DNA from: Scilla litardierei
Lineage: Eukaryota > Streptophyta > Magnoliopsida > Asparagales > Asparagaceae
Length of the DNA stretch: 64,000 nt
Assembly (NCBI GenBank): GCA_030789695.1
Contig: CM061140.1
Span: forward strand, 175,174,319 to 175,238,318
Direction: 5' to 3'
Numbering within the stretch: the first letter of the stretch is position 1; the number at the start of each line of letters is the position of its first letter. Of the stretch, positions 19,800 to 60,268 are shown piece after piece. Position numbers and translations under genes: made by a program. The notes beneath the pieces were generated by a model. That model did no database searches and was not told the DNA's origin. It saw only the letters and a program-made list of their open reading frames with translations.

Positions 19800-19896
19800 T
19801 TGTGAGTTTTTCTTTTCTTATACGCAGTATACATGTCCGTCCGTTCTTCCCATTATGGTTATTCCTACACAAGTTTTGCAGTTCGACAAGACTCCG

Positions 19897-23844: not shown

Positions 23845-24430
23845 TGTAACGGTACGTTTTCGTTGTACTTCGTTCGTGCACGTGCTTTTGGCCGTGCACG
23901 TGTTTATTTTAGACTTTATTTGATTGTGAACACTTTTGTGTGATATGCCGTTGCGAACGTCTCGGAGAGTATTAAATAGTGGCACTAATTTGGAACGACG
24001 TTTCTCGAGTCGTTTTTCCACAATTTGAACTCACTCGATGAGACGTGACGACTTTCACTTTTGACGGGAGACGTTTCTATTTTTAGTTTCGTCGTCCGAC
24101 GTCAAATTTGAGATCCGTCTTCTTAGTTAGCTCACATTCGTCGCCACGATCACAACGATATTTATTTTATAATTTTTGGAGTTTATTTGACCACTTTTAT
24201 AATTTTTACAAGTTTTATATTATTTTTAATAATTTATTTTTAAATTAATTTCGGCCAAATAAAATTTATTTGAGTTTAAAACGTTTTAAAGAATTTTTGA
24301 GCCAATTTCCAGCTCATTTGGACCTGGTCAAATCCTAGATTGGGTTGGAGAAGTTTAAATTCAAATTTCAAATCTTTTTGAATTCTAATCCTATTAGATT
24401 TAGCCCTAGACCAAGTCAACCCACCTATAC

Positions 24431-24438
24431 TATATAAG
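24431..24438 (+). promoter_or_regulatory. TATA box of element E 5' LTR
   Basis: TATATAAG, repeated at 31705-31712 in the 3' LTR. Confidence 0.7.
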
Positions 24439-25953
24439 CAACCCCTAGCAAGTCCTATTTTCCAAAGAAATTAGCCCTAGCCTCTTCCAAACTCATTTTG
24501 GACGTTGCGACGAATCGTCGCAACGTTGCGACGTTCAGCCCCGTACGACCGAGGAAAACAGCTCCGTTCGCCCGCTCAGACCGAGGCCCAACCCCGCAAT
24601 CTCGCCGCTCCGCACCGCTGCCATCGACCCCCGTCCGTTCCCCCGCTTGACCGAGAGGAGCTCTCGGTCTGACCGGTCGCCCCGCTCCGCACCGACGGCC
24701 ACTTGTCGCAACCCCGCATCCGTCGCACCACTTGCCTCCGTGGGCCCCCCAAGTTCTTCAGAGCTATTGTGGGTTCCCCAAAGGTCCCTAGGACTACTGT
24801 GGGCCCCACTTTGGTACGTTCTCTTCGACGACTTGCCGCGTACGACGTCGTCGCACGTCGTAGCCCGTCGTCGCACGTACGAGCTTTGGAATCTGGAATC
24901 GTCGCCCGGGATATTTTCTCTGAATTTCCAGCGAGGAATCTAATTGGAATCTGGACGTGGAGCGCGATCTTATTATTCCAACCCCCGGCGTCGCTACCCG
25001 ACGCCGGTGTAGCTCTCGCGTCGTGTTGAGGTAACGTTTTGCACCCCTAGGACCCCCAACCCAATTGCATGCTAATCAAGACTAAAAATCAGTATTTTAA
25101 AGTATTTTTAAATGTTTTAGAATCACTAATCAAGATTAATAAAACGGATGTAGGCCGGTGGACTTGTGCACGTAGGAATCGTGACTTTGGACTCGTTGGA
25201 CGGTGTTTTCTTGACGTGATAGTTACAGGCAAGTGAAACTTGCCAACTCTTGTGTAGGGCCATGTTTTTAGGCCACTTACTTGCTTTTAGCGTAAAAGAG
25301 ACTAGTCAGTGAAATGATAGCTGGCTAGACGCCTACTTGATCTAGTTTGACAACGAAACTAGATCCGTCACCTAAATAATCTAGCTTGACAACGAAGCTA
25401 GATCCAACCCTTAAATTGGTCATTCATGCATGCTAAACTGTCACGTTTACTTTTCTTACCTGTACGCTTTACTACTTGCCATGCCATGTCATCCATGCAT
25501 TGAATGTTGCATCGTAGCACACGCTACAATACTGTCCTCGTACTACTTGTCCGGCTAGGTGCACCCCTACGCCATACTTGTTTATACACTTCCTGGCTCG
25601 TGGACCAGAAGCGGGCCTCATGTGTTGGCCAGAAACCAATGCCCGATACACGTGGAGGGGTAGGGATAAACGGTTACTTGAGCTTAGGAGTTGGCCCGCG
25701 CAGCCACTCTAGCCAAAAGACGGAATCTCTGTGCACGAGGTGCTTACTTTACTTGTCGTGTACTCGTCTTGTGAATGTCATGCCATGCTCGTACTTTACT
25801 TTACTTTACTTGACCTGTTGCACCCATTACTTTAACTGCCATGTCATTGCATCATGCTAGAACTTTTAGGTTGCTCTTACTTGTACTTTCAGTTTCACTT
25901 GCACAAGTCTTTTAGACTTGCTGACATGTGCCCCTTGCTCTTTTGGGTGCCAC

Positions 25954-26061
25954 ATGTTAGACCCCGAGCTAGAGACAGTTGCTGAGGACGAGGTGTTTGC
26001 TGACACTGAGCCCGAGCCTACGTTCGTCGAGGAGTTCGAGGACACCGGAGACCAGTCTTAG
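25954..26061 (+). CDS. 35-codon acidic ORF in element E 5' LTR
   Basis: ATG 25954 to TAG 26061, 35 aa, with 14 Asp/Glu and no Lys/Arg. It includes DEVFADTEPEPTF and ends EDTGDQS. It lies downstream of the TATA box, so in the leader of the genomic RNA. Same length and 57 percent identity to the ORF at 7118-7225. No domain is recognised. Many other AUGs precede it, so efficient translation is doubtful. Confidence 0.4.
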   Translation: MLDPELETVAEDEVFADTEPEPTFVEEFEDTGDQS

Positions 26062-26403
26062 AGACTGATTTTACTTGCTTTTGCTTTAGGTTGCTGTTAG
26101 ATGTCGGTGCTTGCACCTTTTCTTTGTTTTCGTACTTTGTACTTTTGTTGGCCATGCTGGGCCTCTTTTAGACTCTTTTATTTTAGCCTGGTGGCTTTTC
26201 TGCGTTGTTGAGATTTATTATTATGGATATTCTGAGATGTTCTTTTTGTCTCTTTCGTTATTATTATTTTTGTTTCGTTTCGCGTTGCAAGGACCTGCAG
26301 TTTAAAGTGATTGACGCTTATCGGACTTGCGGCTTTGTAGCTTCAAGTCTGAGCGGACCTTCTCACGCTTCGCCTCCACGTTTTTGGGAAGCGGGGCGTG
26401 ACA

Positions 26404-26552
26404 GGTTTTGTTGGTGGCCCATGCAGGTCCTCTTCTTGCGATTGCGAACTAACGGAACAACGATAATAAACGGAATATCCATTAAATAAATAGCAACATC
26501 CAAGTCATTAAGCTATGAGTCTAATTTGTTTGTTCGTTTTCTATGTCCTTAG
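26404..26552 (+). other. Element E leader with atypical primer-binding region
   Basis: The LTR is followed by GGTTTTGTTGGTGGCCCATG and CAGGTCC, not by the usual TGGTATCAGAGC. The same CCATGCAGGTCC block follows LTR A on the minus strand, so it is conserved. TTTTCTATGTCCTTAG directly before the gag ATG looks like a 3' splice site. Confidence 0.5.
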
Positions 26553-27671
26553 ATGGCTGGACGACGACAGACCCGATCTGGCACTGGGCCCAATCGTGCT
26601 GAGGAGCCAGATAGAGAGCCCACCAATGCTGAGATCATGAGGATGATGCATCAGATGATGCAGGTACAGCAGGGCATGCTCCAGAACACTCAGAGTGCTC
26701 CTCGCCATGAGCCAGGAGCGAAGCAGTTTCGGGAGCTGGGCCCGACGTACTTCGATGGATCTGAGGGACCGATGGCTGCAGAGGAGTGGATCAGAAATAC
26801 CGAGGATAATCTGAAGATGTCGAAGGTCAACCCGGCTGGATGGGTTGATCTGGCAAAGAGGCAGCTGAAGGATAATGCCCGAAACTGGTGGGATGCAGAG
26901 GAGGAGTTGTTGGTGAGCCCTATACCTTGGGCTACTTTCAAGTCTAGATTCGATGAGGAGTACTTTCCGAAGGCTGCTAGGAGGGAGATGTTGCAGCGCT
27001 TCATTGAGCTGAAGCAGGGGAGTCTGACGGTGGACCAGTACCACCAGGAGTTTACTAGATTGAGTCGCTTCGCGCCGAAGATGGTAGAGGATGCTGAGGA
27101 GAAGGCTCAGAAGTTACTGCAGGGTCTTTCTCTAGACTTGCAGAGTCTGGTGTCTACGTCGGACATGGAGTCATATCAGAAGTTGCTGGTAGCTGCTCGG
27201 AGACAGGAGAAGATTGCGAAGCAGAAGAGAGGACTGATTTCTGGAGCTGGGAAGAGGCCTATGGAGCAGGTCAGAGGAGTGGTCAGGCCTGGGACTAGGC
27301 CTAATCAGACAGTGCAGTTCAAGAGGCCAGGTGTGCCTCCTGAGAAGACTTGCCATTTCTGTGGCAAGACCGGGCATATCAAGGATCAGTGTAGGAAGAT
27401 GTTGGGACAGTGCCTGATTTGTGGAGACCATACTCATGCTATGAAGGAGTGCCCTAGGTCTAAGGTACCCTGGAGGGATCCCGTTGCAGCACAGCCGTTG
27501 CAGCAGAGAGCACCTGCAGGTCGTGGAGCGCCTCTTCCTCCGCAGAAGAAGGCTTTTCAGCAGGCTGTGCAGCCGAGGATGCAGGCTTACCTGATGACGG
27601 CAGTGGAGAACGAGGCTACGGATGAGGTTATCGCAGGTAATTCTCAAACTAGTTGTTTCCTCCCTAGATAG
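26553..27671 (+). CDS. gag: Element E Gag (capsid-nucleocapsid)
   Basis: 372 aa as read without splicing. The retrotransposon Gag domain spans about residues 55-225 (FRELGPTYFDGSEGPMAAEE, then ARNWWDAEEELL, then ELKQGSLTVDQYHQEFTRLS). Two CCHC zinc knuckles follow, CHFCGKTGHIKDQC (267-280) and CLICGDHTHAMKEC (287-300). The product packages element RNA in cytoplasmic particles. The last residues (after about 361) come from reading into a likely intron whose donor lies at 27637. Unspliced RNA would thus give Gag alone and spliced RNA Gag-Pol. ATG 26553 starts directly after a pyrimidine-rich TTAG. Confidence 0.93.
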   Translation: MAGRRQTRSGTGPNRAEEPDREPTNAEIMRMMHQMMQVQQGMLQNTQSAPRHEPGAKQFRELGPTYFDGSEGPMAAEEWIRNTEDNLKMSKVNPAGWVDLAKRQLKDNARNWWDAEEELLVSPIPWATFKSRFDEEYFPKAARREMLQRFIELKQGSLTVDQYHQEFTRLSRFAPKMVEDAEEKAQKLLQGLSLDLQSLVSTSDMESYQKLLVAARRQEKIAKQKRGLISGAGKRPMEQVRGVVRPGTRPNQTVQFKRPGVPPEKTCHFCGKTGHIKDQCRKMLGQCLICGDHTHAMKECPRSKVPWRDPVAAQPLQQRAPAGRGAPLPPQKKAFQQAVQPRMQAYLMTAVENEATDEVIAGNSQTSCFLPR

Positions 27672-27751
27672 CTTGATTGTTAGATTATGTTTGAATTGAT
27701 TGCATATGAATGTTTGTTAGAATAGGGCTTGATTGTTAGATTATTTGTTAG
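27637..27751 (+). other. Probable 115-nt GT-AG intron between gag and pol of element E
   Basis: Donor GCAG|GTAATTC and acceptor TTATTTGTTAG|GTGTG. Both natural frames close or open inside it: gag stops at 27671 and pol has no ATG before the protease. Removing 27637-27751 leaves one frame of 1470 codons including the stop (4410 nt), joining gag directly to the protease leader found in single-ORF Tekay elements. The intron contains an 18-bp direct repeat (GCTTGATTGTTAGATTAT) near both ends. A donor at the same residue position is present in the related gag at 5742. Confidence 0.7.
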
Positions 27752-30700
27752 GTGTGATTTTGGTGTGCACATTTCCTGCACGAGTCCTCTTTGACTCAGG
27801 TGCATCGATGTGCATTATCTCTCGGAGCTTCGTCGAGAAGCATTCCTTGACGACTTCCTCTCTTCCCAAGAGTTGGAACATCGTCACGGGAAATGGCGTG
27901 ATCTCGGTGCATCGTGGGTGCACTTCTTGCCCTTTGGTGGTCTGTGGACACGAGCTTTACGCTGACTTTATTGTCCACGACATCATCAACTACGATGCCG
28001 TGCTCGGAATGGATTGGCTTGCGAGCTTCTATGCTACGGTCGATTGTCGGAGGAAGAAGGTGGTGTTCGAGATCCCCGGACATTCGGTGTTTGAGTTCAG
28101 TCGAGGTAGCAGTTCGCTTGGCCCTGTCCGATTTCGGGCCAAGCCGGTGGAGCTTGTTGCTATGCAGATGGAGCAGGATAGACCAGCTGTGGTACGTGAA
28201 TTCGACGACATCTTCCCTGAGGAGATGTCTGGGCTGCCACCCGATCGAGCTCTCGAGTTTTCGATCGATCTTATTCCGGGAGCGCAGCCTATTTCGAAGG
28301 CGCCGTATCGGATGGCTCCAGCAGAGTTGGAGGAGTTGCGTAGGCAGCTGGACGAGCTTTTGCAGAAGGGATACATCAACCCTAGTGTGTCTCCGTGGGG
28401 AGCACCGGTGTTGCTGGTGAAGAAGAAGGATGGCTCGCGTCGCATGTGTGTGGATTACCGGGAGCTGAATGCTGTGACTATCAAGAATAAATATCCCCTG
28501 CCGCGGATAGATGACATCTTTGATCAGCTCGGAGGATCGAGGGTGTTCTCTAAATTGGATTTGAGAAGTGGCTACCATCAGCTTAAGGTGAAGAAGGACG
28601 ACATCCCGAAGACAGCGTTCAGGACGAAGTATGGTCACTACGAGTTTGTGGTTATGCCCTTCGGCGTAACCAATGCGCCCGCAGTCTTTATGAACCTGAT
28701 GAATTTGATCTTCTACGATTTTCTAGACAAGTTCGTCGTCATCTTCATTGACGATATTCTGATCTACTCAAAGTCGGAGGAAGAGCATGCCTCGCACTTG
28801 AGGACCGTGTTGGAGATCTTGAGGAAGCATCGTTTGTATGCCAAGTATTCCAAGTGTGAGTTTTGGCTGGATAGAGTTGCCTTTCTCGGGCATGTGGTGT
28901 CTGGTGATGGAATTTCTGTGGATCCCGAGAAGATTGTGGCTATCAGAGAGTGGCCGGTTCCGCAGTCGGCGTCAGAGATTCGGAGTTTCCTGGGACTTGC
29001 AGGCTATTACCGACGATTCATTAAGGACTTTTCTCGGATTGCTGAGCCGATGACCCGACTGACGCGAAAGGATGTGCCTTATGTTTGGTCCGAAGATTGC
29101 GAGAAGGCTTTTGGTATTCTGAAGGAGAGGTTGACGACTGCCCCTGTACTTGCTGTGCCCGATCGGAGTGGAGGATTCGAGATCTTTTGTGATGCTTCTG
29201 GAAAGGGTCTAGGATCTGTGTTGCATCAGCATGGGCATGTGGTTGCGTATGCTTCTCGTCAGCTTAAGGCTCATGAGAAGAACTACCCGACACATGATTT
29301 GGAGTTGGCTGCCGTCGTGTTTGCGCTGAAGATTTGGAGGCACTTCCTGCTGAGTGAGAAAGTGAAGATCTTCACCGATCACAAAAGCTTGAAGTACATC
29401 TTTACGCAGAAGGAGCTCAACATGCGACAGCGTCGATGGTTGGAGCTCATGGCAGACTATGAGATTGACTTACAGTATCACCCTGGCAAGGTGAATGTGG
29501 TTCCGGATGCGCTGAGCAGACTTCCAGCGGTGATGATGTTGACGTCGCAGTGGAGATTGCAGCAGGACTTTTGCGAGACCGGTATCGAGATTATTCTTCC
29601 TGGAGAGACTTCTACGATGATGAGCATGCAGATACAATCGACGATCGTGGATAGGATCAAGGTTGGACAGGCTGGAGATGCTAAGCTGGTGAAGATTCGG
29701 GAGCAGGTGGAAGCCGGTCTGCGGACTGACTTCTTGATTCACGAGGATGGCTCGTTGAGATTTGGAGCCAGGTTGTGTGTGCCGGCTGGAGATATCAAAG
29801 AGGAATTATTGGTCGAGGCACACAGTTCGCCGTATTCTGTGCATCCTGGTGGGACCAAGATGTACAAGGATCTTCGTCTGAACTTTTGGTGGCATGGTAT
29901 GAAGAGGAGTGTGGCTCGGAGTGTAGCCAAGTGTTTGGTCTGCCAACAAGTAAAGGCGGAGCATCAGCGTACGGCAGGGTTGCTACAACCGCTTCCGATT
30001 CCGGAGTGGAAGTGGCAGCACATCACTATGGATTTCGTGACTGGACTACCTCGGAGTCCGAAGCAGAACGACGCGATTTGGGTGATCGTAGACCGATTGA
30101 CCAAATCCGCGCACTTTATTCCCTTCCGAGTAGGACAGTCTACCGAGACGCTAGCGAGGAGATACATGGAGGAGATCGTACGACTTCACGGAGTCCCCGT
30201 GAGTATCGTGTCGGACAGAGACACGAGATTCACATCTCAGTTTTGGCAGAGTCTGCAGAAGAGCTTGGGTACGAGTCTGAGTTTCAGCACGGCGTACCAC
30301 CCGCAGACGGATGGCCAGTCCGAGAGGACGATTCAGATCTTGGAGGATATGTTGCGAGCTTGCATGTTGGACTTTAAGGGATCTTGGGAGGATCATCTCC
30401 ATCACGTTGAGTTTGCCTACAATAACAGCTACCAGGCGAGTATTGGAATGACGCCTTTCGCCGCGCTATATGGAAAGAAATGTCGATCGCCACTGAGCTG
30501 GGATGACGTTGGAGATCGGGAGCTGTTAGGACCGGAGATGATCGTGGAGGCCGTGGATGTGGTGAGGAATATTCGAGAGAAGCTGAGGATTGCGCAGGAC
30601 CGTTTCAAGCATTGGGCAGATGCTAAACGGAGGCCCTTGGAGTTTCAGCCTGGCGATCATGTCTTTCTGAAGATTTCTCCGAACCGCGGAGTTATTCGAT

Positions 30701-31077
30701 TTGGGAAGAGAGGCAAGCTGAGTCCGAGGTTCATTGGACCGTTCGATGTTCTGGAGAGAGTTGGAGCTGTGGCTTATCGCTTGGCGTTGCCACCGTCGCT
30801 TGTGGGAGTTCACGACGTATTTCACGTATCTCAGTTACGACGATACGTTAGTGATCCATCCCACGCTGTGGATTTCTCGGAGATTACGGTTCGTCCGGAT
30901 CTGTCTTATGATCAGCAACCCGTTGAGATTCTGGATCGTCGACAGAAGCAACTGAGGAATAAGACCGTCGACTTGGTTCGTGTGCAGTGGCGTCACGGTT
31001 CCCCCGGTGAGTCTACCTGGGAGCGTGAAGATGAGATGAGAGAGCGTTTCCCGCACCTTTTCCCGAGCAGTGCTTGA
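27752..31077 (+). CDS. pol: Element E Pol: protease, RT, RNase H, integrase, chromodomain
   Basis: Open from before the acceptor to TGA at 31077, about 1107 codons after splicing. In order: aspartic protease FDSGAS; RT with [35 protein letters not shown] and the catalytic FIDD; RNase H with [10 protein letters not shown], the phrase [12 protein letters not shown] and TDHKSLKYI; integrase zinc finger (H...H...CLVC), the catalytic D/D/E in [15 protein letters not shown] and QSERTIQ; then the [20 protein letters not shown] block; and a chromodomain ending [17 protein letters not shown]. All catalytic residues are present. The chromodomain class is thought to aim integration at marked chromatin. 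The first in-frame start codon is TTG, which supports the spliced Gag-Pol reading. Confidence 0.95.
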
Positions 31078-31107
31078 TGTTGATTCCGAGGACGGAATCA
31101 TTTCTAA

Positions 31108-31118
31108 GGCGGAGAGGA
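31108..31118 (+). other. Polypurine tract of element E
   Basis: GGCGGAGAGGA immediately precedes the 3' LTR; the plus-strand priming site of reverse transcription. Confidence 0.75.
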
Positions 31119-33677
31119 TGTAACGGTACGTTTTCGTTGTACTTCGTTCGTGCACGTGCTTTTGGCCGTGCACGTGTTTATTTTAGACTTTATTTGATTG
31201 TGAACACTTTTGTGTGATATGCCGTTGCGAACGTCTCGGAGAGTATTAAATAGTGGCACTAATTTGGAACGACGTTTCTCGAGTCGTTTTTCCACAATTT
31301 GAACTCACTCGATGAGACGTGACGACTTTCACTTTTGACGGGAGACGTTTCTATTTTTAGTTTCGTCGTCCGACGTCGAATTTGAGATCCGTCTTCTTAG
31401 TTAGCTCACATTCGTCGCCACGATCACAACGATATTTATTTTATAATTTTTGGAGTTTATTTGACCACTTTTATAATTTTTACAAGTTTTATATTATTTT
31501 TAATAATTTATTTTTAAATTAATTTCGGCCAAATAAAATTTATTTGAGTTTAAAACGTTTTAAAGAATTTTTGAGCCAATTTCCAGCTCATTTGGACCTG
31601 GTCAAATCCTAGATTGGGTTGGAGAAGTTTAAATTCAAATTTCAAATCTTTTTGAATTCTAATCCTATTAGATTTAGCCCTAGACCAAGTCAACCCACCT
31701 ATACTATATAAGCAACCCCTAGCAAGTCCTATTTTCTAAAGAAATTAGCCCTAGCCTCTTCCAAACTCATTTTGGACGTTGCGACGAATCGTCGCAACGT
31801 TGCGACGTTCAGCCCCGTACGACCGAGGAAAACAGCTCCGTTCGCCCGCTCAGACCGAGGCCCAACCCCGCAATCTCGCCGCTCCGCACCGCTGCCATCG
31901 ACCCCCGTCCGTTCCCCCGCTTGACCGAGAGGAGCTCTCGGTCTGACCGGTCGCCCCGCTCCGCACCGACGGCCACTTGTCGCAACCCCGCATCCGTCGC
32001 ACCACTTGCCTCCGTGGGCCCCCCAAGTTCTCCAGAGCTATTGTGGGTTCCCCAAAGGTCCCTAGGACTACTGTGGGCCCCACTTTGGTACGTTCTCTTC
32101 GACGACTTGCCGCGTACGACGTCGTCGCACGTCGTAGCCCGTCGTCGCACGTACGAGCTTTGGAATCTGGAATCGTCGCCCGGGATATTTTCTCTGAATT
32201 TCCAGCGAGGAATCTAATTGGAATCTGGACGTGGAGCGCGATCTTATTATTCCAACCCCCGGCGTCGCTACCCGACGCCGGTGTAGCTCTCGCGTCGTGT
32301 TGAGGTAACGTTTTGCACCCCTAGGACCCCCAACCCAATTGCATGCTAATCAAGACTAAAAATCAGTATTTTAAAGTATTTTTAAATGTTTTAGAATCAC
32401 TAATCAAGATTAATAAAACGGATGTAGGCCGGTGGACTTGTGCACGTAGGAATCGTGACTTTGGACTCGTTGGACGGTGTTTTCTTGACGTGATAGTTAC
32501 AGGCAAGTGAAACTTGCCAACTCTTGTGTAGGGCCATGTTTTTAGGCCACTTACTTGCTTTTAGCGTAAAAGAGACTAGTCAGTGAAATGATAGCTGGCT
32601 AGACGCCTACTTGATCTAGTTTGACAACGAAACTAGATCCGTCACCTAAATAATCTAGCTTGACAACGAAGCTAGATCCAACCCTTAAATTGGTCATTCA
32701 TGCATGCTAAACTGTCACGTTTACTTTTCTTACCTGTACGCTTTACTACTTGCCATGCCATGTCATCCATGCATTGAATGTTGCATCGTAGCACACGCTA
32801 CAATACTGTCCTCGTACTACTTGTCCGGCTAGGTGCACCCCTACGCCATACTTGTTTATACACTTCCTGGCTCGTGGACCAGAAGCGGGCCTCATGTGTT
32901 GGCCAGAAACCAATGCCCGATACACGTGGAGGGGTAGGGATAAACGGTTACTTGAGCTTAGGAGTTGGCCCGCGCAGCCACTCTAGCCAAAAGACGGAAT
33001 CTCTGTGCACGAGGTGCTTACTTTACTTGTCGTGTACTCGTCTTGTGAATGTCATGCCATGCTCGTACTTTACTTTACTTTACTTGACCTGTTGCACCCA
33101 TTACTTTAACTGCCATGTCATTGCATCATGCTAGAACTTTTAGGTTGCTCTTACTTGTACTTTCAGTTTCACTTGCACAAGTCTTTTAGACTTGCTGACA
33201 TGTGCCCCTTGCTCTTTTGGGTGCCACATGTTAGACCCCGAGCTAGAGACAGTTGCTGAGGACGAGGTGTTTGCTGACGCTGAGCCCGAGCCTACGTTCG
33301 TCGAGGAGTTCGAGGACACCGGAGACCAGTCTTAGAGACTGATTTTACTTGCTTTTGCTTTAGGTTGCTGTTAGATGTCGGTGCTTGCACCTTTTCTTTG
33401 TTTTCGTACTTTGTACTTTTGTTGGCCATGCTGGGCCTCTTTTAGACTCTTTTATTTTAGCCTGGTGGCTTTTCTGCGTTGTTGAGATTTATTATTATGG
33501 ATATTCTGAGATGTTCTTTTTGTCTCTTTCGTTATTATTATTTTTGTTTCGTTTCGCGTTGCAAGGACCTGCAGTTTAAAGTGATTGACGCTTATCGGAC
33601 TTGCGGCTTTGTAGCTTCAAGTCTGAGCGGACCTTCTCACGCTTCGCCTCCACGTTTTTGGGAAGCGGGGCGTGACA
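31119..33677 (+). repeat. 3' LTR of element E
   Basis: 2559 bp, four transitions away from the 5' LTR in my reading. TATA at 31705-31712. Confidence 0.96.
33228..33335 (+). CDS. 35-codon acidic ORF in element E 3' LTR
   Basis: Same frame as 25954-26061, with one of the four LTR differences falling in it (ACT to GCT, T18A). The frame is intact in both LTRs. Confidence 0.35.
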   Translation: MLDPELETVAEDEVFADAEPEPTFVEEFEDTGDQS

Positions 33678-36500: not shown

Positions 36501-37141
36501 TGTTGAGAGATGATACCCTCGAGGCTATCTATCTTCATGTGTGAATAGCACAAACATCTTGTTCAAAATAACAGTAAGCTGTTTGGTAATAATTTATCTA
36601 AAGTTATGTTATAATGTAGTTAACATTAGATATTAACTTAGGTAAAGTCTTGAGACTTTATGCAAGGTCAAACATGTATCGAGATGCGTATCTCGATCAT
36701 GGAGAAATGTTTGACCGTCTGTAGCATAAGTTTAAAAGGGTTCGTGGTCGTAGATGTTTCGAGACAAGGATATCTAAACATCGGATAGACCATTGTGTCT
36801 TAGTCTTCACCGTTTAGCGGTGGCGATGATCTCATGATCGCTTGACTTGGCGAAGTCGTAGACGAGACACAGGTGCTCATTAGAGAATGAGTTCACTGAA
36901 CGATCCACAAGAGTTATCATATGGTTATTTTGACCAATCTGTCAATGATAACTCTGAGTGATGATAGGCTAGTTGGTCTTTTGACTTGAGGTCATTTTGA
37001 CGAACCTGTGCGTGAACGGTGCCACTTAGATCAAATGACCTAGCTTCGAGGCAAGGCATGTCGAAAGGTCTTTGATTGGGTGACACTTGAAGCGTATGCG
37101 GAGAGTAATGACCAAGAGAGGATTTGTCTCTTGTTAAGCAT
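36501..37141 (+). mobile_element. Probable truncated 3' LTR of element D
   Basis: Starts TGTTGAGAGATGATACCCTC after the PPT, which recalls the 5' LTR start TGTAGAGGAATATGCCCTC. Beyond that I see little likeness to 21287-22505, so it may be the LTR of a different Copia family or a very diverged partner. It breaks off at the CACTA boundary and does not resume after 42124. Confidence 0.45.
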
Positions 37142-37297
37142 ATGTACAAAAAAGTATATTCAAATCATCTATACCTCTAACCCTACAAACAAACAAAGCA
37201 TATGATCAAATAAGTTAAAGAACACACATGTTATTATAAGAGTTCTAATAACATGTCAAAAAACAGTAAATATGGAATATAAATATTAAATATGTAC

Positions 37298-37771
37298 CTA
37301 GCGATGGAGCTCTAGTAACATGTCACGAAGTTGTTGCATTTGTGGATACCTTACTAAATCCAGTTTTCGATTCTCCTCTATAATTTGTTTTCGTTCTTCC
37401 TCTCTTCGCCCATATTCCTCCTCTCTTCTCTGTTGTTCATCCTCTCTTCACCTATATTCATCATCTCTTTTCTTCTGTTCCTCCTCTCTTCGCCAATATT
37501 CATCATCTCTTTGCATATGTTCTTCCTCTCTTGCAAGTTCTCGTTGACGATATTCCTCTAATTGCTTTTGCATGGACATGATTTGAGAGAATGTAGTTCC
37601 ACTGGATTGTGTAGAAGTAGAACCGAAACGAGTCTTTGCTGTCACACCAGGTCCATAAGAACGTTGATGACCACTATGTTGTGGAGGCATCACCTGATTG
37701 TATGTAGCATCATCTATAGACGTGGGTAGGATTCCTCCATTCTTTTCTGTTGCCACCGCACGCCGTTCATC
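37298..37771 (-). pseudogene. Transposase_24-like (plant En/Spm-associated) gene, last exon
   Basis: Acceptor ATTATGCAG|GATG at 37772. The frame contains DATYNQVMPPQHSGHQRSYG, which fits the plant Ptta/En/Spm (Transposase_24) phrase YNQVMGP..HG..RGYG. A Gln/Arg/Glu-rich coiled-coil repeat (REEEH, WRREEEQKK, RREEEYGRREEER) follows, and the frame ends LRDMLLELHR-stop at 37298. One in-frame TGA at 37448-37450 breaks the coiled coil, probably CGA to TGA. The family is an accessory DNA-binding type protein of CACTA elements. Confidence 0.7.
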
Positions 37772-37859
37772 CTGCATAATTTAGACAAGCAATCATAATC
37801 CTAATGATATGCATATAAGAGAAATAGACAACTAAAGTTCGAAATATTTCTTGACATAC

Positions 37860-37961
37860 AATCAACTCCTTCGCTTTTGGATCAGATGCCACATTATTGG
37901 AGCGTGAATGCAAATGGATGAACATATCTCCATCTGATGGTTCCACACCATTTGTCTTAGT
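37860..37961 (-). pseudogene. Transposase_24-like gene, preceding exon
   Basis: 34 codons between GTGAATAG|ACTAAG and GTTGATT|GTATGT, phase 0 at both ends and in frame with the next exon. It reads TKTNGVEPSDGDMFIHLHSR, resembling the family's stretch before the YNQVMGP exon. Confidence 0.6.
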
Positions 37962-38009
37962 CTATTCACAAAAAAACATAATAATTATTTACATATGAAA
38001 TGAAGTTAG

Positions 38010-38169
38010 AAATAACATGACATGATTCATAAAAATGGTGTTCTCTCCGCTCATGACATTGTCCATAGAGTGCAGGTTGACTTGTGCATACATGACTATT
38101 GAGCCTAACACATCGGTGCAGCTCCCTTGAAGGATTATCATACTGTTTTGATCTTGATCCAAAGTGAGC
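38010..38169 (-). pseudogene. Captured HD-Zip IV exon (post-START region)
   Basis: Acceptor TTTACAG|GCTCAC at 38170. One frame reads DQNSMIILQGSCTDVLGSIV then MYAQVNLHSMDNVMSG. HD-Zip IV proteins (GL2/PDF2/ROC) have the conserved N..MLILQESCTD.SGS.VVYAPVD...M..VM.GG here. The likeness fades after about 38040. The frame is offset relative to the preceding exon if the visible splice sites are used, so the fragment is not functional as a gene. Confidence 0.78.
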
Positions 38170-38369
38170 CTGTAAATATATTTTTTCCGTAACAATTGGA
38201 CCCCAAGAATTAGCATCATGCAATCAAACTGAAAATGCCAGACATTGCAATTTATGAGGATTAAGTCTAGCTCAGCTTAATATCGCTCCCTTTACCAGGG
38301 GCAAAAACAAAAACGAATGAAAAGCCTACATTTTGCTCCATAAACAAATAAAAAAGCAAAGAAGCTTAC

Positions 38370-38459
38370 GCGTAGCAGAGAGATAGAGTTCCCTGGGTTT
38401 AAGCTGGTCGTAATTTTAGTGACCTCTTGCACCATATTGCCATTAGACATGACATCGTA
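38370..38459 (-). pseudogene. Captured HD-Zip IV exon (WDILSNGG region)
   Basis: Exactly 30 codons between TTATACAG and GTAAGC, phase 0 both sides. It reads YDVMSNGNMVQEVTKITTSL then NPGNSISLLR. This fits the HD-Zip IV segment (E)WDILSNGG..QEMAHI..G.D.GN.VSLLR that directly precedes the SCTD exon, and the order on the minus strand is the same as in the genes. Confidence 0.78.
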
Positions 38460-38668
38460 CTGTATAAAATTAGACATATATAAATATCTAAGGATGGTTC
38501 TATATATTTGCCAAATCGGGTGAGGGCTCAACTATGAACAAATCTTAGGTTAGCAGCAGCAGGAAATAGCGTATAGCTTAAACAAAGCAGTGCATGTTCC
38601 CAGATTATTCATTGCATCAAGAGGTCTCATCAGATATCGTATATGGAAAAGGGGAATAACTACCCTAC

Positions 38669-38796
38669 CTATTTCTTCTTGAATGTAAAACGTATGAGAA
38701 TGGTGCTCTGAAGAGAACATGCAGTCCATAAGCAATGTATAACTAAATGGATGCGATTGATGCCATCGCTTGGAATGCAACCAGGCTTTCAAGTGA
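38669..38796 (-). pseudogene. Captured HD-Zip IV START-domain exon, degraded
   Basis: Bounded by CTTGCAG and GTAGGG. One frame reads SLVAFQAMASIASI followed by TAG, which lines up with the START phrase SGLAFGA.RW.A.LQ (the stop at the Q, CAG to TAG). It is weaker than the two exons downstream, but lies in the right order before them. Confidence 0.45.
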
Positions 38797-39499
38797 CTGC
38801 AAGGCATGAAAATGAAGTTTATTTAATCAAAACTTTGAAAAGGCTTTCGAAATTAAATGTTTTGCATATATCATTAACATAACTAATTATGAACATAGTA
38901 GGCATAGCTTTTTGGCTGGTTCATTATATTTAAGATGCATAATTCCATCTTCTTTTTCAACTTCTAATACCCGTCTACAGAAATATTTAGAAATACATAT
39001 TTTCTCCTATATTTATCAGATAAAAATCTATTTAAGTATAACCTTGTCCATTCATACACTATATCACATGCATATCTTAATGATCTCTTTTTAGAAATTG
39101 ACTATGCTAGTATCCAGGGAAAAAAGGACTCGGGCATTTTTTTTCCGTCAATCATAAAGAGAATCATCGATATCCATGCATTTAAATACATATTTGGTGT
39201 ACCTGGGATAAAGAAAAATGCAACTAGAAACATGAGTAAAACAAGATTCCTGATATCTTTTAAAAATTCATGCAAAAAATAGGGCATGAACTTAGAAAAG
39301 GAATTAGAAACATGAGTTCAACAACATTTCTGATCTTTTTAGAAAAATTATATGCTAGGAATAAAACATGAATCTAGCACTGGCAATGCATATCAGAGAT
39401 AAGTAAAAAAGTAGATTGAAACATGAGGAAGGCTAGATCTATGTTATCTTTTAAAAAACATACATGTAAAGGGTAAAGCATGAACATAGTATCGTCAAT

Positions 39500-39630
39500 G
39501 ACATGCAGAATGCTATAACCGATGATAACCAGACGGCATTCCTAGAAACCACCGGGTCTCTTTGAGCTACATGACGGAAAGAAACCATAATGATAATCAA
39601 CTCAATGGAACTGAATTGGAGTCCTTCAAG
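39500..39630 (-). pseudogene. Possible further HD-Zip IV START exon
   Basis: After the acceptor GATTTCAG an open frame begins LEGLQFSSIELIIIMV, reminiscent of the (G)ALQLM.AELQVLSPLV start of a START exon. Only a weak likeness; supported mainly by its place upstream of the other HD-Zip IV exons. Confidence 0.3.
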
Positions 39631-39957
39631 CTGAAATCATAAAATGTGAATTAGCTCTATATTTTCTTTAATCATGTTCTCATATTTCCTTTCCGATCGA
39701 CACAACACAGAATCAAAATATTTTGAATATATACCTCTTTTTGAACATATATACGGATTGAAACTCAGCCAGAGCATCTTACCAATATTGTTCATGACCA
39801 GAAGCAGCAATAAACATAAGTACAATCAAGGCAATGCACAAGTTGGGCAAATATATCAAAGAAATTTTAACTTAATTAAGACATTTATTTTCTTCATATG
39901 ATATTTTTTTGATGAATGTATGACAGATAATTTAACAAAGAGGAAAAAAGAACCTAC

Positions 39958-40205
39958 CAGCAAGAAGACTTCGAAACAATTCATCGACAGCCAATGAGCG
40001 CTTTTCGTATCTATCATAAGCCTTGATGTCTATTTTCCTTCCTATTGGGATTACATCCATATTAATTTTCACAAACAACCCCATTGCTGCCTTGTCCGAG
40101 CTCCCATCATGGGATTGATCAGGAGTTTGTTTTGATGAAATGCTGATTAGATTCTTCCTGAATAAACGAATGTGATGCCATCCAACTACATGAGCAGAAG
40201 TAATT
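39958..40205 (-). pseudogene. Captured Aux/IAA exon, domains II and III, degron altered
   Basis: 248 nt between TTGTGTGCCAG and GTAGGT, with no stop. The frame has domain II as VVGWHHIRLFRKN (family VVGWPP[VI]R.[FY]RKN) and domain III as LFVKINMDVIPIGRKIDIKA then YDRYEKRSLAVDELFRSLLA, close to the IAA18/IAA26 group. Aux/IAA proteins repress auxin response factors in the nucleus; domain II is the TIR1/AFB degron. The central Pro-Pro is His-His here, a position where single changes are known to stabilise Aux/IAA proteins. Domain I is not seen and domain IV is not found downstream, so this is a fragment. Confidence 0.85.
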
Positions 40206-41040
40206 CTGGCACACAAAAATACAACTAATGAGACATTGTAAGCAATTCTAGCCCATAATAATATTTTGTTTGGGTTCACTTTTAATTTCAAATGTGAAAC
40301 TAATCATATACACTTTGCATCCATTTTTGAGCGTGTAGAAAATTAGAAATAAACAAAATTTACACAATTTATTTCTACAGAATTGAACAATGCCCATCCT
40401 CTCTTTAGAACAAAATTTAAGAAAGATAGATGTTTCAAAGAGAAACAACCAAAACCAAAAGGCAAAATTCAAGACTACATGCTGTTACATCTAAACGACA
40501 CAAAAATAATCAACAGAAATCTTTCTTAATTAAAACAGAGAGTTCTTATTAGAAAAAGCAAACAAAACATGCCATAAGTCTAACATAGAGCTCCTAAAAC
40601 ATCAAAATGCTTAATAAATTATTTGAACTCACATTGACAATTTATACTCAAACATTGAGCTAATGAAATGAAATTTAAAATCATCAAAAACATTTCCTCA
40701 TAAAACTATGAAAATCAAAAGCAAGTATGTACCCTTTTCTTCTGAACGATTAGTTTAGGCAATCTGTCAAACATTTGGCAAACTTATATACATCAAAAAG
40801 AAAATAAACACAAAAACATCATAAATTATATATTAGATAATAATAAGTCATTTGAAATTAATCATCTATCTATAGTCTACTTTGATAATAATTTGATTTA
40901 AAAACTTAAAAATAAAGGCACTTACCGATGCTCTTTACTCACCGTGGATTGATGGTGCTACCTCTGATCGTTTAAAAATCAAACAATAAAATTTATGACA
41001 TGTATTTGCGACAAAGAAATGATTTTTACAGGACAAATAC

Positions 41041-41169
41041 CTTGCCCTTCATGAAGGTGATGCGCCGCTTGAGCAAGAACGGGGGCTTGTTTGTCCTGCT
41101 CATGAAGAGCCTCTTCAAGGTCACCGCATTGAAGCTGCTCTCCATCCTTCTAACCAAAAACTTATACAA
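41041..41169 (-). pseudogene. Captured exon of ribosomal protein L18 (eL18) gene
   Basis: Exactly 43 codons between GGTGGCAG and GTATTT, phase 0 both sides, no stop. It reads [20 protein letters not shown] then [11 protein letters not shown] and FMKGK. Plant RPL18 has LY[RK]FLVRRT.S.FNAV.LKRLFMS..N..P.SL..L..FM.GK at this place (about residues 32-74). It is a fragment: the first and following exons were not found nearby. Confidence 0.85.
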
Positions 41170-41260
41170 CTGCCACCGAAACAAAACTACAAACAACAAA
41201 TCAAAAACACAAATTAATCAACAAACAATTTGAACAAAATGTGAGAGAGCGGGGGTTTAC

Positions 41261-41530
41261 CTGAAAAAGCCTCCAATCTCGAACAGAACCAATCTTCTGG
41301 CCTCGTCCTCTTTGCCAATCAAAAGCTGGAGGTCAACGGTTGCTAGGGCTCGATGGTCGGAGGTCGTCCTCTTTGCGATCCGCGGCCACCCTCATCTGCA
41401 AACGGATCGTATCTAGGGCTCGACGATTGCTTGGGAATATGCGAGAGAGCGGGGGATATTGAAATATATGGAAAAAATTTCGGTCTGAATTATTGTGGAA
41501 GACGGCGGCAATTAAATATGGGAGGGGTTT
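41261..41530 (-). other. Possible 5' exon of a CACTA chimeric transcript
   Basis: GC-richer minus-strand sequence ending in a good donor TTTTTCAG|GTAAAC (41261/41260), just inside the subterminal repeats. Frames are interrupted, so it would be mostly untranslated. It may itself be captured sequence, source unknown. Confidence 0.3.
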
Positions 41531-41759
41531 CGTGACCTTGGAACGAACAGGCGGGGAGTTTTCTCGGTAAATTGTTTGGGGGTGGGCGGGGAGATTTCGT
41601 GACCTATGAAATTATATACCAAAATTTGCTTAAGTTTTTTGCCAAACGCGGGAATGATTATTTCCAATTTGACATTATCTTTTCTTTAATTTGTGGGGAT
41701 GCCATTTATTTACAATTTACCATTACAAATTTATATGAACTACAAAAAACTTTTCGTTC

Positions 41760-42121
41760 TAGTGTCGACCACCAAGATTGATCCCAGAAAGTATATTAGT
41801 GTCGACCAACAAGGCTGACCCTAGAAAGTATACGTTCTAGTGTCGACCACCAAGGTCGACACTAGAAAGTATACATTTTAGTGTCGACATCTGCAGCCGA
41901 CACAAGAAAATCACCCACTAGTGTCGACAATTTATCTTCTTGTGTCGACAACTTAAGATCAACACAAGATATGAGCTCTAGTGTCGGCATACATGTAGGA
42001 ATCGAAAAAATGGCTTTTCTAATGTCGACTTTCTTCTACCGACACTAAAAGTATACTTTTAGTGTCAGCAAATTTAAGTCGACACTAATTTTGGTCACAA
42101 GAAACTCACTTTTTTGTAGTG
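41760..42121. repeat. CACTA subterminal repeat block and right terminus
   Basis: At least ten copies of (T)AGTGTCGAC or its complement GTCGACACTA, in both orientations, followed by the terminal TTTTTTGTAGTG. Such blocks bind the element's own transposition proteins in En/Spm. Confidence 0.85.
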
Positions 42122-52740: not shown

Positions 52741-54372
52741 CCAGAGGTCCTAGCTTTGCACGTGCCCTTTTCTGGTTAGGATGGCGAAGCTCCGTAAGCT
52801 TGCCCCGGAGTCTTCACTGGAGGGGGGAGAGCGAGGGCGTAGCTCGGCCCGGGCCTTTCTCCGGTTTGGGTAGCGAAGCTCCGTAAGCTTGCCTCGGAGT
52901 CTTTGAGAGGGCGGGTATTGGGCCGTCGCCTACCCCGCATCCTCTGTAATCGGACGAGTATTGGGCCGTCGCCTACCCCGTATTTGCCACTCAAGTTTGG
53001 GTGGCAAGGACGGATCCTGCCCTGGAGTCTTCACTGGAGGGGGGAGCGAGCGCGTAGCTCGGCACATGCCCTTCTCCGGTTTGGGTAGCGAAGCTCCGCA
53101 AGCTTGCCCCGAGGTCTTTGAGAGGGCGGGTATTGGGCCGTCGCCTACCCCGCATCCTCAGTAATCGGACGGGTAGTGGACCGTCGCTTACCCGACATTT
53201 GCCACTCCAGTTTGGATGGCAAGGACGGATCCTGCCCCGGAGTCTTCACTGGAGGGGGGGAGCGAGCGGTTAGCTCGGCCGTGCCCTTCTCCGGTTTGGG
53301 TGGCGAAGCTCTGTAAGCTTGTCCGGGAGTCTTCACTAGAGGGGGGAGCGAGCGCGTAGCTCGGCCCGTGCCCTTCTCCGGTTTGGATAGAAAAGCTCCG
53401 TAAGCTTGCCCCGGAGTCTTTGAGAGGGCCGGTATTGGGCCGTCGCCTACCCCGCATCCTCTGTAATCGGATGGGTATTGGACCGTCGCCTACCCCGTAT
53501 TTGCCACTCCAGTTTGGATGGCGAGGACGGATCCTGCCCCGGAGTCTTCACTGGAGGGGGGAGCGAGCATGTAGCTCGGCCCGTGCCCTTCTCAGGTTTG
53601 GGTGGCGAAGCTCCGTAAGCTTGCCCCGGAGTCTTCACTGGAGGGGAGAGCGAGCGCGTAGCTCGGCCCGTGTCCTTCTCCGGTTTGGGTATCGAAGCTT
53701 CGTAAGCTTGCCCCGGAGTCTTCACTGGAGGGGGAGCGAGCGTGTAGCTCGGCCTGTGCCCTTCTCCGGTTTGGGTGGCGAAGCTCTGTAAGCTTGCCCC
53801 GGAGTCTTTGAGAGGGCGGGTGTTGGGCCGTCGACTACCCCGTATTTGCCACTCCAGTTTGGGTGGCGAGGACGGATCCTGCCCTAGAGTCTTCACTGGA
53901 GGGGGGAGTGAGCGCGTAGCTCGGCCCGTGCCTTTCTCCGGTTTGGGTGGCGAAGCTCCGTAAGCTTGCTCCGGAGTCTTCACTGGGGGGAGCGAGCACG
54001 TAGCTTGGCTCATGCCCTTCTCCGGTTTGGGTGGCGAAGCTCCGTAAGCCTGCCCTGGAGTCTTCACTGGAGGGGGGGATCGAGCGCGTAGCTCGGCCCG
54101 TGCCCTTCTCTGGTTTGGGTGGCAAAGTTCCGTAAGCTTGCCCCGGAATCTTTGAGAGGGCGGGTATTGGACCGTCGCCTACCCCGCATCCTCTGTAATT
54201 GGACGGGTATTAGGTCGTCGCCTACCCCATATTTGCCACTTCAGTTTGGGTGGCGTGGACAGATCCTGCCCCGGATTCTTCACTGGAGGGTGGGAGCGAG
54301 CGTGTAGCTCGACCCGTGCCCTTCTCCGGTTTGGGTGGCGAAGCTCCGTAAGCTTGCCCCGGAGTGGAGTGG
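52741..54372. repeat. Tandem array in the 3' region of element C
   Basis: About 1.6 kb of two intermixed unit types. Type 1 (about 85 bp): CGAAGCTCCGTAAGCTTGCC, GGAGTCTTCACTGGAGGGGG, AGCGCGTAGCTCGGCCCGTG, CCCTTCTCCGGTTTGGGTGG. Type 2: TTGAGAGGGCGGGTATTGGG, CCGTCGCCTACCCCGCATCC, then TTTGCCACTCCAGTTTGGGT. Type 1 is the reverse-complement relative of the 81-bp unit of element B, as expected from the opposite orientations. Confidence 0.92.
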
Positions 54373-54463
54373 AGAATGTCCGAGGTGAACTGAAATTTTC
54401 AAGTGGAGACGGCGAAATTTGAAAATATGCTGGAAAGGGAGAAGTTTATTAAAACTCACAAAG

Positions 54464-56392
54464 TCATTGATAATATTTCAGCAAGTGTTCTGCATTCCAC
54501 GGGTGTGCTAGCTCGTCACCGTCCGTGGTCGCCAGGATGTAAGTGGCCGGCCCAATGATGTCGATGACCTCGTAGGGGCCTTCCCACTTTGTTGTGAGCT
54601 TCCCTCATCGAGCGATCTCCGGTTTGAAGGTTGCGTACCTGGGGACTAGTTCGTCGATCCTGAAGCTCCGCTTCTTCACCCGGGAGTTGTAATGCCGGGC
54701 CATCCTCTGGCTGTGCCGGACGAGATTCGTCAGAGCTCGATCTCTCACTTCTTCGATGAGCTCGAGGTTGAGGCCGAGGCCATCCACGTTGATGTCCTCA
54801 TCGAAATATCGAAGCCGAAGAGTCTCCTCTCTCACTTCCACAGGAACGACCGCTTATGCCCCAAACGCCAGCATAAAAGGGCTCTCTCCGGTCGAAGCTT
54901 TGTAGGTCGAGCGGTATGACCAGAGAATGCCCGGTAGTTCGTCTACCCAAGACCTAAGAGCGTTGCCGACCTTCTTCAGGGGGTCCAGTATGCACTTTGT
55001 TTGTTGCCTCCGCCATCCCATTGCACTGCGGGTGCGCCACGGAAGCGAAGTGGAGCTTGATCCCCCATTCTGAACAGAAACTCGGGAAGCCCTCGCAATC
55101 GAACTGTCTTCCGTTATCTATTACTATGGAGCGGGGTACCCCAAAGCGGCAAATAACGGACTTCCAAATGAAGTTCTTCATGTCAGTCCACGCGATATGC
55201 ACCAAGGGTTCGGCCTCGATCTATTTGGTGAAGTAATCGACGGCGATGACAAGGTACTTCCTCCCATCGGAGGCCTTCGGGAAAGATCAGAGGATGTCGA
55301 GTCCCCACCTGGGAAAGGGAATAGGGCTAAGGATGGGCACCAGGTCGGCCGGCGGTGCCGCAGTGTGTCTGCCAAATTTCTGGCATTCTCCACATTTCTT
55401 GACGTATTGGGACGCGTCGTGGATCATTGTTGGCCAGTAGTATCCCCGACGCACTATCTTGTAGGCGATAGTGCGTCCGCTGTAGTGGTTTCCGCAGAGG
55501 CCCTTGTGCACCTCACGGATGACTTGTTCGGCCTGGCCCGGCCCCAGACACTTCAGGTAAGGCAGGACGTCGAACCTTGCGCGGCGCTTGCGGTAAAGCA
55601 CTTTGTCAAAGATCACGAATGACAAGGCCCGCCTCTCGATCTTCTTAGCTTCAAGTCGCTCCTCGGGCATGGCTCCCGTCTCCAAGTATTTCATTATTGG
55701 GCTCATCCAAGTCGTCGTCTGGCTGACACACATTAACTCGCCTTCTTCAATGGTGGGTGTTAGCAGGTTCTCGACGTAAATGGCTTTCCCAATTTCGGCC
55801 GGGGAGGAGGCCAACTTCGACAGGGCGTCGGCCCGGAGGTTGTTGGAACGAGGTAGGTGTTGGACCTCCGCCCTTTGGAACTTCTGGAGCTCGGCCTGTG
55901 CGCGCTTAAGGTAACGCTTCATCAGCTCCTCCCGGGCCTCAAATCTCCCTTGGATCTGTTGGACGACGAGCCGTAAGTCGCTTAGTAGCAGTACGTTCGT
56001 TTTCCCCATCGCTCGACATAGCTTCAATCCATTGACTGCGGCTTCGTACTCCGCGACATTGTTGGTCGCCGAGAAGCTAAAGCGCAGCGCGTACTCCAAC
56101 AGGCATCCGTCGGGGGTTTGGATGACGATGCCTGCCCAGTTCCGGATCCCGTGGCCGACCCGTCAACGTGGATGATCCACAGTTCGCCCACTTCTTCTTG
56201 GGCGGACGTCAAGGGTTTGACTGCTTCCAGAGCTCTCTGCCACGCTACTATCGACTGAGCACTTGAGGGTTCTTTGGGAAGATCTTCGATGATGCACTTC
56301 ACTACGAAATCCGCCAGTTTTTGGCCCTTGATCGCCGTTCGAGCTTTGTATATTATGTCGAACTCGCTGAGCTCGATGCCCCAGTTTAGCAT
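54464..56392 (-). pseudogene. Element C archaeal-type RNase H and integrase, fragmented
   Basis: The minus strand carries the second RNase H (WIIHVDGSATGSGTG, AEYEAAVNGL, LLLSDLRLV with the catalytic Asp kept but Ser-Asp-Leu in place of Ser-Asp-Ser, NNLRADALSKLA), then the integrase finger and core (WGLDIL, VIDNGRQFDCEG, NGMAEATNK), and the end HPWNAEHLLKYYQ followed by TGA 54466-54464. A frameshift near 56100, breaks near 55290 and 54950, and a TGA near 54604 disable it. Good likeness to element B throughout. Confidence 0.82.
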
Positions 56393-56398
56393 TTTACC

Positions 56399-57637
56399 CT
56401 ATCGTTCTAACCTCTTCAGGTTCTTTTCGAGCAGCAGGCTGGTGTGGATGATGATGGTGTGAGCTTGGAAGTATGGCCGGAGCTTCCTTGTCGTTGTGAC
56501 GAGACAGTAAGCGACCTTCTCTATGAGGCTGTAACGGGTCTCTGCATCTCGGAGCATCCGGCTCGCATAGTAGACCGGCAAATATACGCCCTTTTCTTCC
56601 TTGACCAAGACCGAACTAACAGCCTCTTTATTGGTGGCCAGATACAGCCCCAGCTGCTCTCCTTCCTCGGGCTTCACGAGCAGCGGCAGGCTTTGCAAGT
56701 AAGCTCGCATCTCTGCGAATGCTTGGGCGCAGGTGTCGTCCCACTGGATCACTTTGCTGTCGATGTTCTTTGCGGCGAGGGCCCGCCGCAGGACTCTGAA
56801 AAATGGGAGCGACCTTTCCGCGGACTTCGACAGGAACCTCCCCAGCGCGACGACCCTGCCGTTCAGCCGATGCAAGTCTCGGATGGTCCGAGGTTCCATC
56901 ATGTTGATAAAGGCGGACACCTTGTCTGGGCTCGCTTCAATTCCTCGCTTCGTTATCATGAAGCCGAGGAACTTCCCAGATTGCACGCCGAAGATGCACT
57001 TCGCCGGGTTCAGCCTTAGATCAAACCGGCGCACCTTCGGGAAGGTCTCCTGCAAGTCGGCTAGGTGGTCCGGGGCCTTCTTGCTTTTGACCAACATTTC
57101 GTCGATGTAGACTTCCAGATTCCGCCCAACCTGAGAGCTGAAGATCTTGTCCACCATTCGCTGATAGGTTGCCCCTGCATTCTTCAGTCCGAACGGCATC
57201 TTCATGTAGCAGAAGGTGCCCTTGTCGGTTATGAAGGACGTCTTCTCCTCGTACTCCTTCGCCATCAGGATCTGGTTGTAGCCCGAGAACGCATCCATAA
57301 AGCTCAGCAGTTCGTAGCCCGACGCCTGGTCGACCAGGTGGTCGATCCTCGGCAAAGGAAAGCTGTCCTTTGGGCACACCTTATTGAGGTCAGTGAAGTC
57401 GACGCACATGCGACACTTCCCGCTGGCCTTCTTCCCCAAGACGACGTTGGCGAGCCACTCCGGATCACCGGCCTGATGAATTTGGCCTGGAGGAGCCGCT
57501 CCACCACTTCGCTGGCCGCCCTCATCTTTTATCCTCCGGAGCTCTTCTTCTGCCGGACCGGTCGAGATTCCGGGTCTGCGTTCAGCTTGTGAGCGATCAC
57601 TGAGGGATTGACTCAGGGCATGTCCGAGGATGACCAT
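56399..57637 (-). pseudogene. Element C reverse transcriptase and first RNase H, catalytic Asp changed
   Basis: A 412-codon open frame whose first 60 or so codons are out of frame. It contains CRMCVDFTDLNKVCPKD, FMDAFSGYNQI, MPFGLKNAGATYQRM, then VYIDEMLVKS, then LHRLNGRVVALGRFLSKSAE, and RNase H up to LEKNLKRLER. The RT active-site motif YIDD reads YIDE here (the codon before ATG is GAA), which would inactivate the polymerase. Confidence 0.85.
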
Positions 57638-57639
57638 GC

Positions 57640-60234: not shown

Positions 60235-60252
60235 GGGGTGTGACCCTTCGAT

Positions 60253-60268
60253 CCCACAGACAACGCCA
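60253..60268 (-). other. Primer binding site of element C
   Basis: TGGCGTTGTCTGTGGG on the minus strand, 2 nt after the LTR end. Differs from element B's site at CC to TT (TGGCGCCGTC against TGGCGTTGTC), which fits C-to-T decay. Confidence 0.75.

Follow-up and report, generated by a model that had tools for sequence, protein, structure and literature searches.

A 64,000-nucleotide stretch of the Scilla litardierei genome (C11:175174319-175238318; hereafter the window, with positions counted from its first letter) raises a question about gene capture by transposons: do pieces of three unrelated host genes, RPL18, Aux/IAA and HD-Zip IV, lie within a single CACTA element, as a first-pass annotation proposed, and can they still act as coding sequence? 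Genomic copies of the element and source loci of its fragments were sought by BLAST across the 3.68-Gb assembly, and seven further copies (c1-c7) were fetched and compared with the window copy (n = 8). The three captured fragments come from different source loci and lie in one orientation inside one CACTA element. We consider it very likely that this is a multi-copy, non-autonomous CACTA (En/Spm) element of the Pack-CACTA kind, that its RPL18, Aux/IAA and HD-Zip IV pieces were captured as DNA before it amplified, and that they are non-coding cargo. The parts of the window copy are listed below.

37128-42121, minus strand: window copy of the CACTA element, truncated on its left side (BLAST against genomic copies)
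42109-42121, minus strand: true terminal inverted repeat, CACTACAAAAAAG (comparison of copies)
41755-42095, minus strand: subterminal repeat array of the AGTGTCGAC motif (tandem array)
41261-41590, minus strand: putative leader exon of the element (from sequence; transcription start predicted)
40967-41239, minus strand: RPL18 segment, comprising part of intron 1, exon 2 (41041-41169) and part of intron 2 (BLAST and Pfam)
39538-40622, minus strand: Aux/IAA segment, comprising part of intron 1, exon 2 (39958-40205), intron 2 and the start of exon 3 (39538-39602) (BLAST and Pfam)
38012-38472, minus strand: HD-Zip IV segment, comprising exons 38370-38459 and ~38038-38169 and the intron between them (BLAST and Pfam)
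37300-37961, minus strand: broken 3' remnant of the element's own Transposase_24-like gene, two exons (PF03004)
37145-37155, no strand: TACAAAAAAGT, formerly read as the left terminal repeat; an internal match and not an end (internal in c4, c5 and c6)
37127/37128, no strand: left breakpoint of the window copy, where homology to c4, c5 and c6 ends

Identity of the captured fragments

That parts of three unrelated host genes share one CACTA element is borne out by their Pfam identities and by the recurrence of the arrangement in other copies. The RPL18 exon on the minus strand matches Ribosomal_L18 (PF17135, E 6.6e-12) and aligns over its whole length to eL18 residues 32-74 in plant ribosome structures. 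The Aux/IAA exon, also on the minus strand, matches PF02309 (E 3.8e-23), and in a protein search with its frame 71 of 80 candidates were recovered, each with an Aux/IAA domain, and identity to the best of them was 55%. Of the two to four HD-Zip IV exons that had been suggested within 38010-39630, two were found. Both belong to the START region (PF25797, PDF2_C), with E 8.3e-6 for the first, slightly below the curated cut-off, 1e-11 for the second and 3e-21 for the two joined by hand. Two other intervals were rejected as HD-Zip sequence: 38550-38822 had no Pfam match in the frames scanned, nor had 39451-39636, which includes the start of Aux/IAA exon 3.

The splice sites, described earlier as mostly intact, are canonical at both the acceptor and the donor of the RPL18 exon, Aux/IAA exon 2 and the first HD-Zip exon; in the second HD-Zip exon, only an acceptor was seen. 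The minus strand at 40917-40964, in the interval that separates the RPL18 part from the Aux/IAA part, also has two strong donor-like sites, GTGAGT and GTAAGT, and an extra exon is possible there.

Nearest source loci

The best match to the whole RPL18 segment is an RPL18 gene at C8:4.82M (locus L016), which is 91.6% identical over 273 bp, including the exon and both intron edges. Its translated exons match Ribosomal_L18 with E 8.4e-66; the last exon was not found within the fetched stretch. Over the 130 bp shared with a degenerate RPL18 locus at C8:86.0M (L017), identity is 93.8%, compared with 92.3% for L016. A third, broken RPL18 locus on C10 is 79% identical to the captured segment, and two more loci (C11 and C3) match the exon only, at 81-84%.

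For Aux/IAA, four blocks within 39538-40622 (78-86% identity) are collinear with a gene at C12:293.55M (L043), whose translated exons match the Aux/IAA domain with E 4.2e-52. Three stretches of the element's Aux/IAA introns (39603-39735, 39780-39953 and 40348-40496) are absent from this nearest gene.

The nearest relatives of the HD-Zip segment are two pieces on C12, at 239.013M (84%) and 239.022M (86%). This locus (C12:239013164-239022127) is a probable pseudogene, since 8.5 kb separate its two pieces and two bases are missing from its first exon. Identity to an HD-Zip IV gene at C4:30.06M is 82-88%. Thus, a search of the same genome for parent genes and other copies, as proposed in the first-pass annotation, yielded nearest loci for all three genes and nine family loci.

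Ends and extent of the element

Where does the element begin and end? At the right end, all eight copies read share the terminal TAGTG (at 42121 in the window) and differ in their flanking DNA; the 13 bases of CACTACAAAAAAG are identical in seven of the eight, c7 having one change. Both CACTA terminal inverted repeats are present in the full copies c4, c5 and c6, each starting CACTACAAAAAAA, and these copies are flanked by 3-bp duplications (GTT, AAT and CCA, respectively). In c7, the left end reads CATTA, a mutated form, and TTG flanks the element on either side, so that a matching 3-bp target duplication accompanies every copy in which both ends were found (4/4, c4-c7). The complete element measures 5,857 bp in c4, 6,764 bp in c5, 7,227 bp in c6 and ~11.8 kb in c7, which contains a 6-kb insertion. 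For c1, c2 and c3, no left end was found.

The left boundary of the window copy is another matter. It had been placed at 37145, with an ATG/ATG duplication, and this placement fails: TACAAAAAAGT is internal in c4, c5 and c6, and homology continues to 37128. Copy c4 (C5:42.09M) is 95.5% identical to window 37128-42121, and c5 and c6 are 96.8% identical to window 37128-37347. The ATG/ATG duplication is best read as a chance match, and the genomic copies likewise rule out an end at 37145 formed by insertion into a palindromic target site. In the full copies, the genuine left end (CACTACAAAAAAA...) lies ~864 bp further out than the window copy reaches. A query with CACTACAAAAAAA, one mismatch permitted, had a single match in the window, at the right-end repeat 42109-42121, and a search of the window for the outer left part of the element found nothing beyond short matches to subterminal repeats. 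The window copy is therefore a truncated one that retains only the right CACTA end, either through a deletion or through an insertion longer than the 37 kb that lie upstream.

With its left boundary false, one could argue that the fragments are separate old pseudogenes and belong to no common element. Four copies, located on contigs C4, C5 and C13, nevertheless show the same arrangement between true CACTA ends flanked by target duplications, which leaves this explanation practically untenable.

Copies and age

The 401-bp RPL18 region is whole in eight loci on five contigs, at 96-100% identity. The Aux/IAA region occurs in seven of these eight loci, as does the HD-Zip region, where the HD-Zip parts of c1 and c2, 16-24 kb away across insertions, were assigned by position and strand. 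A ninth family locus, at C13:0.32M, matches only window 37455-39868 in the fetched 5 kb and stops inside the Aux/IAA part; genome searches with the RPL18 and Aux/IAA regions gave no match near it. As a stepwise intermediate from before the arrival of RPL18 and Aux/IAA it was rejected, and it looks like a truncated copy, since the match breaks off inside the Aux/IAA part.

The retained introns, namely the RPL18 intron parts and the collinear Aux/IAA blocks, indicate capture at the DNA level. Pairwise difference among the eight copies (28 pairs) averages 3.6%, with a range of 1.9-5.5%. At the rice substitution rate of 1.3e-8 per site and year, the mean corresponds to about 1.4 million years. The majority sequence of the copies differs from the nearest gene at 13 of 144 intron sites for RPL18 and at 38 of 268 for Aux/IAA, or about 4 and about 6 million years at the same rate; either age may be that of a paralogue's divergence instead of the capture itself. 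Judging from the copies, capture very probably preceded amplification of the element.

The element's own parts

Besides the host pieces, the element has sequences of its own. The AGTGTCGAC motif has 11 matches between 41761 and 42086 at no more than one mismatch; such subterminal repeats stand on both sides in the c4 sequence and on the right side in the window copy. The putative leader exon ends in a donor, CAG/GTAAAC, at 41261/41260, and a TATA-like TATATAA starts at 41618. When the 401-bp RPL18 region was used as a query, 28 genomic places were found, 12 of which match only ~41252-41300, the GC-rich end of the leader with its donor; this part therefore belongs to a wider CACTA family and not to RPL18. 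The captured RPL18 segment begins at 41239, just downstream of the leader donor, and we infer that host DNA entered immediately downstream of the element's own leader exon.

The Transposase_24-like gene, said to run in the same direction as the captured exons, does have that direction, but what remains of it is a weak and broken remnant. Its two exons joined by hand match PF03004 with E 2.1e-4 and 21.9 bits, below the gathering score of 28.7; singly, the first exon has E 0.025 and the second no match. An in-frame stop lies inside exon 2 in both the window copy and c4. The window copy has no long transposase frame beyond this remnant, the Pfam scan of 20 element frames revealed no other transposase family, and a protein search with the Transposase_24-like piece gave 16 candidates, none at E <= 0.001. 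Where the window copy and c4 have the remnant, c5 (L013/L025) and c6 (L014/L026) form a sub-group with another segment of 1.6-2.0 kb, in which the best Pfam match over four scanned frames has E 0.098.

Taken together, these features are consistent with the following history. The host pieces would have been taken up as DNA, probably in separate events, and inserted downstream of the leader exon before the element multiplied. Its transposition would have used enzymes supplied in trans, and the window copy would have lost its left end later. The element's own promoter may drive a spliced, non-coding chimeric RNA.

Coding potential of the captured exons

The key question is then whether the captured exons encode a functional chimeric protein, that is, whether exon shuffling is at work. 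The preserved splice sites might suggest so, as might the RPL18 and Aux/IAA exons, both open in the window copy. The reading frames tell otherwise. The phases of the captured exons clash: joined directly, the RPL18 frame meets a stop after 28 residues of the Aux/IAA exon, and the Aux/IAA frame meets one within a few residues of entering the HD-Zip exon. If the Aux/IAA exon is skipped, RPL18 and the first HD-Zip exon are in frame, and this join holds the longest ATG frame, of 150 amino acids, among 16 exon combinations modelled from the window with an assumed leader start and the transposase remnant kept unspliced. The first ATG opens only 20 amino acids in all 16.

The other copies weaken the protein explanation further. 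The open Aux/IAA exon of the window copy is an exception: its CGA, which corresponds to an arginine codon in the C12 gene, is TGA in all six other copies that contain this exon, and the frame is additionally shifted in c6 and c7. Frameshifts also affect the RPL18 exon in c5 and c7 (2/8 copies) and the first HD-Zip exon in c4 (1/5). The second HD-Zip exon starts without two bases of the C4 gene, a frame shared by all five copies read. The GWPP motif of the C12 Aux/IAA gene, which we take to be its degron, has become GWHH in the window copy and five of the six others, and GWLH in the sixth. Among the copies, exons vary as often as adjacent introns (1.6-2.5% against 1.5-2.2%). Relative to L016, the copy majority of the RPL18 exon differs at 1 of 26 synonymous and 4 of 103 non-synonymous sites, a ratio near 1; two other RPL18 loci differ from the same gene by 13-15 synonymous and 4-5 non-synonymous changes. 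No intact joined reading frame under purifying selection was found, selection being a marginal hint at most. A working chimeric protein is thus very improbable, and the captured fragments look like non-coding cargo.

Some observations weigh against reading the element as non-autonomous, with fragments from these sources and long free of constraint. The substitution count for RPL18 comprises five changes only. When the captured exons are pooled, changes among the copies show a slight synonymous excess, with 26 synonymous and 42 non-synonymous against the 20.9 and 56.4 that the spectrum of changes elsewhere in the element predicts (p 0.041 in one frame out of six tested, a value that would fail correction); weak past constraint on the captured exons may be reflected here. 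The Aux/IAA segment differs from L043 mostly synonymously (19 of 58 synonymous and 15 of 188 non-synonymous sites), and L043 may therefore be a paralogue and not the direct source. Since L017 is equally near to the RPL18 segment over the 130 bp that they share, the true source of that segment may be a relative of L016 or L017, and from these identities it could be one such as L017. Finally, no complete transposase gene of the element's family was seen, a result that covers whole the window copy and only parts of the copies beyond it.

If the fragments are non-coding cargo, might they still act as RNA? A TATA-like site, the leader and its donor all stand upstream of captured exons with acceptors, the predicted layout for a chimeric RNA, and a chimeric transcript from the element is possible because the leader exon with its donor precedes these exons. 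Of the chimeric product put forward in the first-pass annotation, the transcript layout thus stands, while the protein founders on the phase clash, the TGA in six of six copies and the broken frames. An unlikely extension is that the chimeric RNA, or small RNAs derived from it, would affect the parental genes (RPL18, Aux/IAA or HD-Zip IV) in trans. In its favour, several copies contain exon stretches 90-248 bp long, the RPL18 segment and the C8 gene share 92% identity across 273 bp, and the leader and donor lie upstream in the sense direction; the longer Aux/IAA and HD-Zip blocks are only 82-88% identical to their nearest relatives. A somewhat more speculative and rather improbable idea is that of a mobile gene trap, in which each new copy would make a spliced non-coding RNA with exons of all three genes, and this RNA or its small RNAs would shield the element from silencing or tune the parental genes.

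Other features of the window

Elsewhere in the window, an open frame of 356 amino acids at 9980-11050 on the plus strand, with methyltransferase (PF08241) and sterol methyltransferase (PF08498) domains, is an apparently intact host gene. A complete young long terminal repeat (LTR) retrotransposon occupies 23845-33677; its LTRs are 99.84% identical over 2,559 bp, and ACTGG is present on both sides. Tandem arrays of 81- and 87-bp units at 19898-21286 and 52801-54365 lie inside two inverted repeats (13265-21061 and 53210-60758) that are 68-70% similar.

Relation to known gene capture by CACTA elements

The following comparisons draw on the cited sections of the published reports. With host coding DNA between its ends, no functional transposase of its own in the window copy and an occurrence at several sites, the element has the properties of a Pack-CACTA. 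As in the Pack-CACTA elements of Arabidopsis, rice and maize, which are non-autonomous and hold coding DNA from one or more loci (PMC8903248; PMC13317346), and in maize from several loci per element (PMC8903248), it combines different sources; unlike those described there, it retains a remnant of its own Transposase_24-like gene. A 3-bp target site duplication is a trait of the CACTA superfamily (PMC8978399), and the Scilla element conforms to it, whereas 5-nt duplications are reported for rice and maize CACTA elements in the Pack-CACTA literature (PMC8903248; PMC13317346). Aberrant excision of neighbouring insertions has been proposed as a mechanism of capture (PMC13317346).

A clear precedent is Tgm-Express1 of soybean, a CACTA element of 5.7 kb in which pieces of five genes, both intronic and exonic, are found; the exons appear in chimeric transcripts (PMC1947982). 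The Scilla element is nearly the same size and likewise combines intron and exon pieces, with usable splice sites, from several unrelated host genes. The chimeric transcripts of Tgm-Express1, shown by reverse transcription-PCR, started from the host F3H promoter (PMC1947982); the Scilla element, in contrast, has three fragments, a putative leader exon of its own and several dispersed copies, and is known from DNA alone. The Tpn1 family of the Japanese morning glory resembles it in being non-autonomous, with an interior replaced by captured host sequence and the ends kept, and one Tpn1 element forms chimeric transcripts with the gene in which it sits (PMC5105172); the plant and the captured sequences are different. 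On wheat chromosome 3B, 140 CACTA capture events were counted, and 19 captured genes were reported as transcribed and under selection (PMC4290129), whereas the Scilla element shows no clear sign of selection.

Because multi-gene capture in CACTA elements is already published (PMC1947982; PMC8903248; PMC4290129), the presence of three sources in one element is less unusual than was claimed. A limited literature search found no report of this combination of captured genes, which is no proof that it is unpublished.

What, then, does the Scilla element add? It is a well-resolved case of multi-gene capture, with nearest source loci, intron edges and a capture that would be placed before amplification. 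It also illustrates a pitfall: judged from one copy, the boundary, the target duplication and the open frames gave no cause for doubt, but the boundary and the duplication did not survive a comparison with further copies, and the open Aux/IAA exon proved to be an exception. If the element is transcribed, it would offer a natural test of whether captured exons help a transposon to escape silencing.

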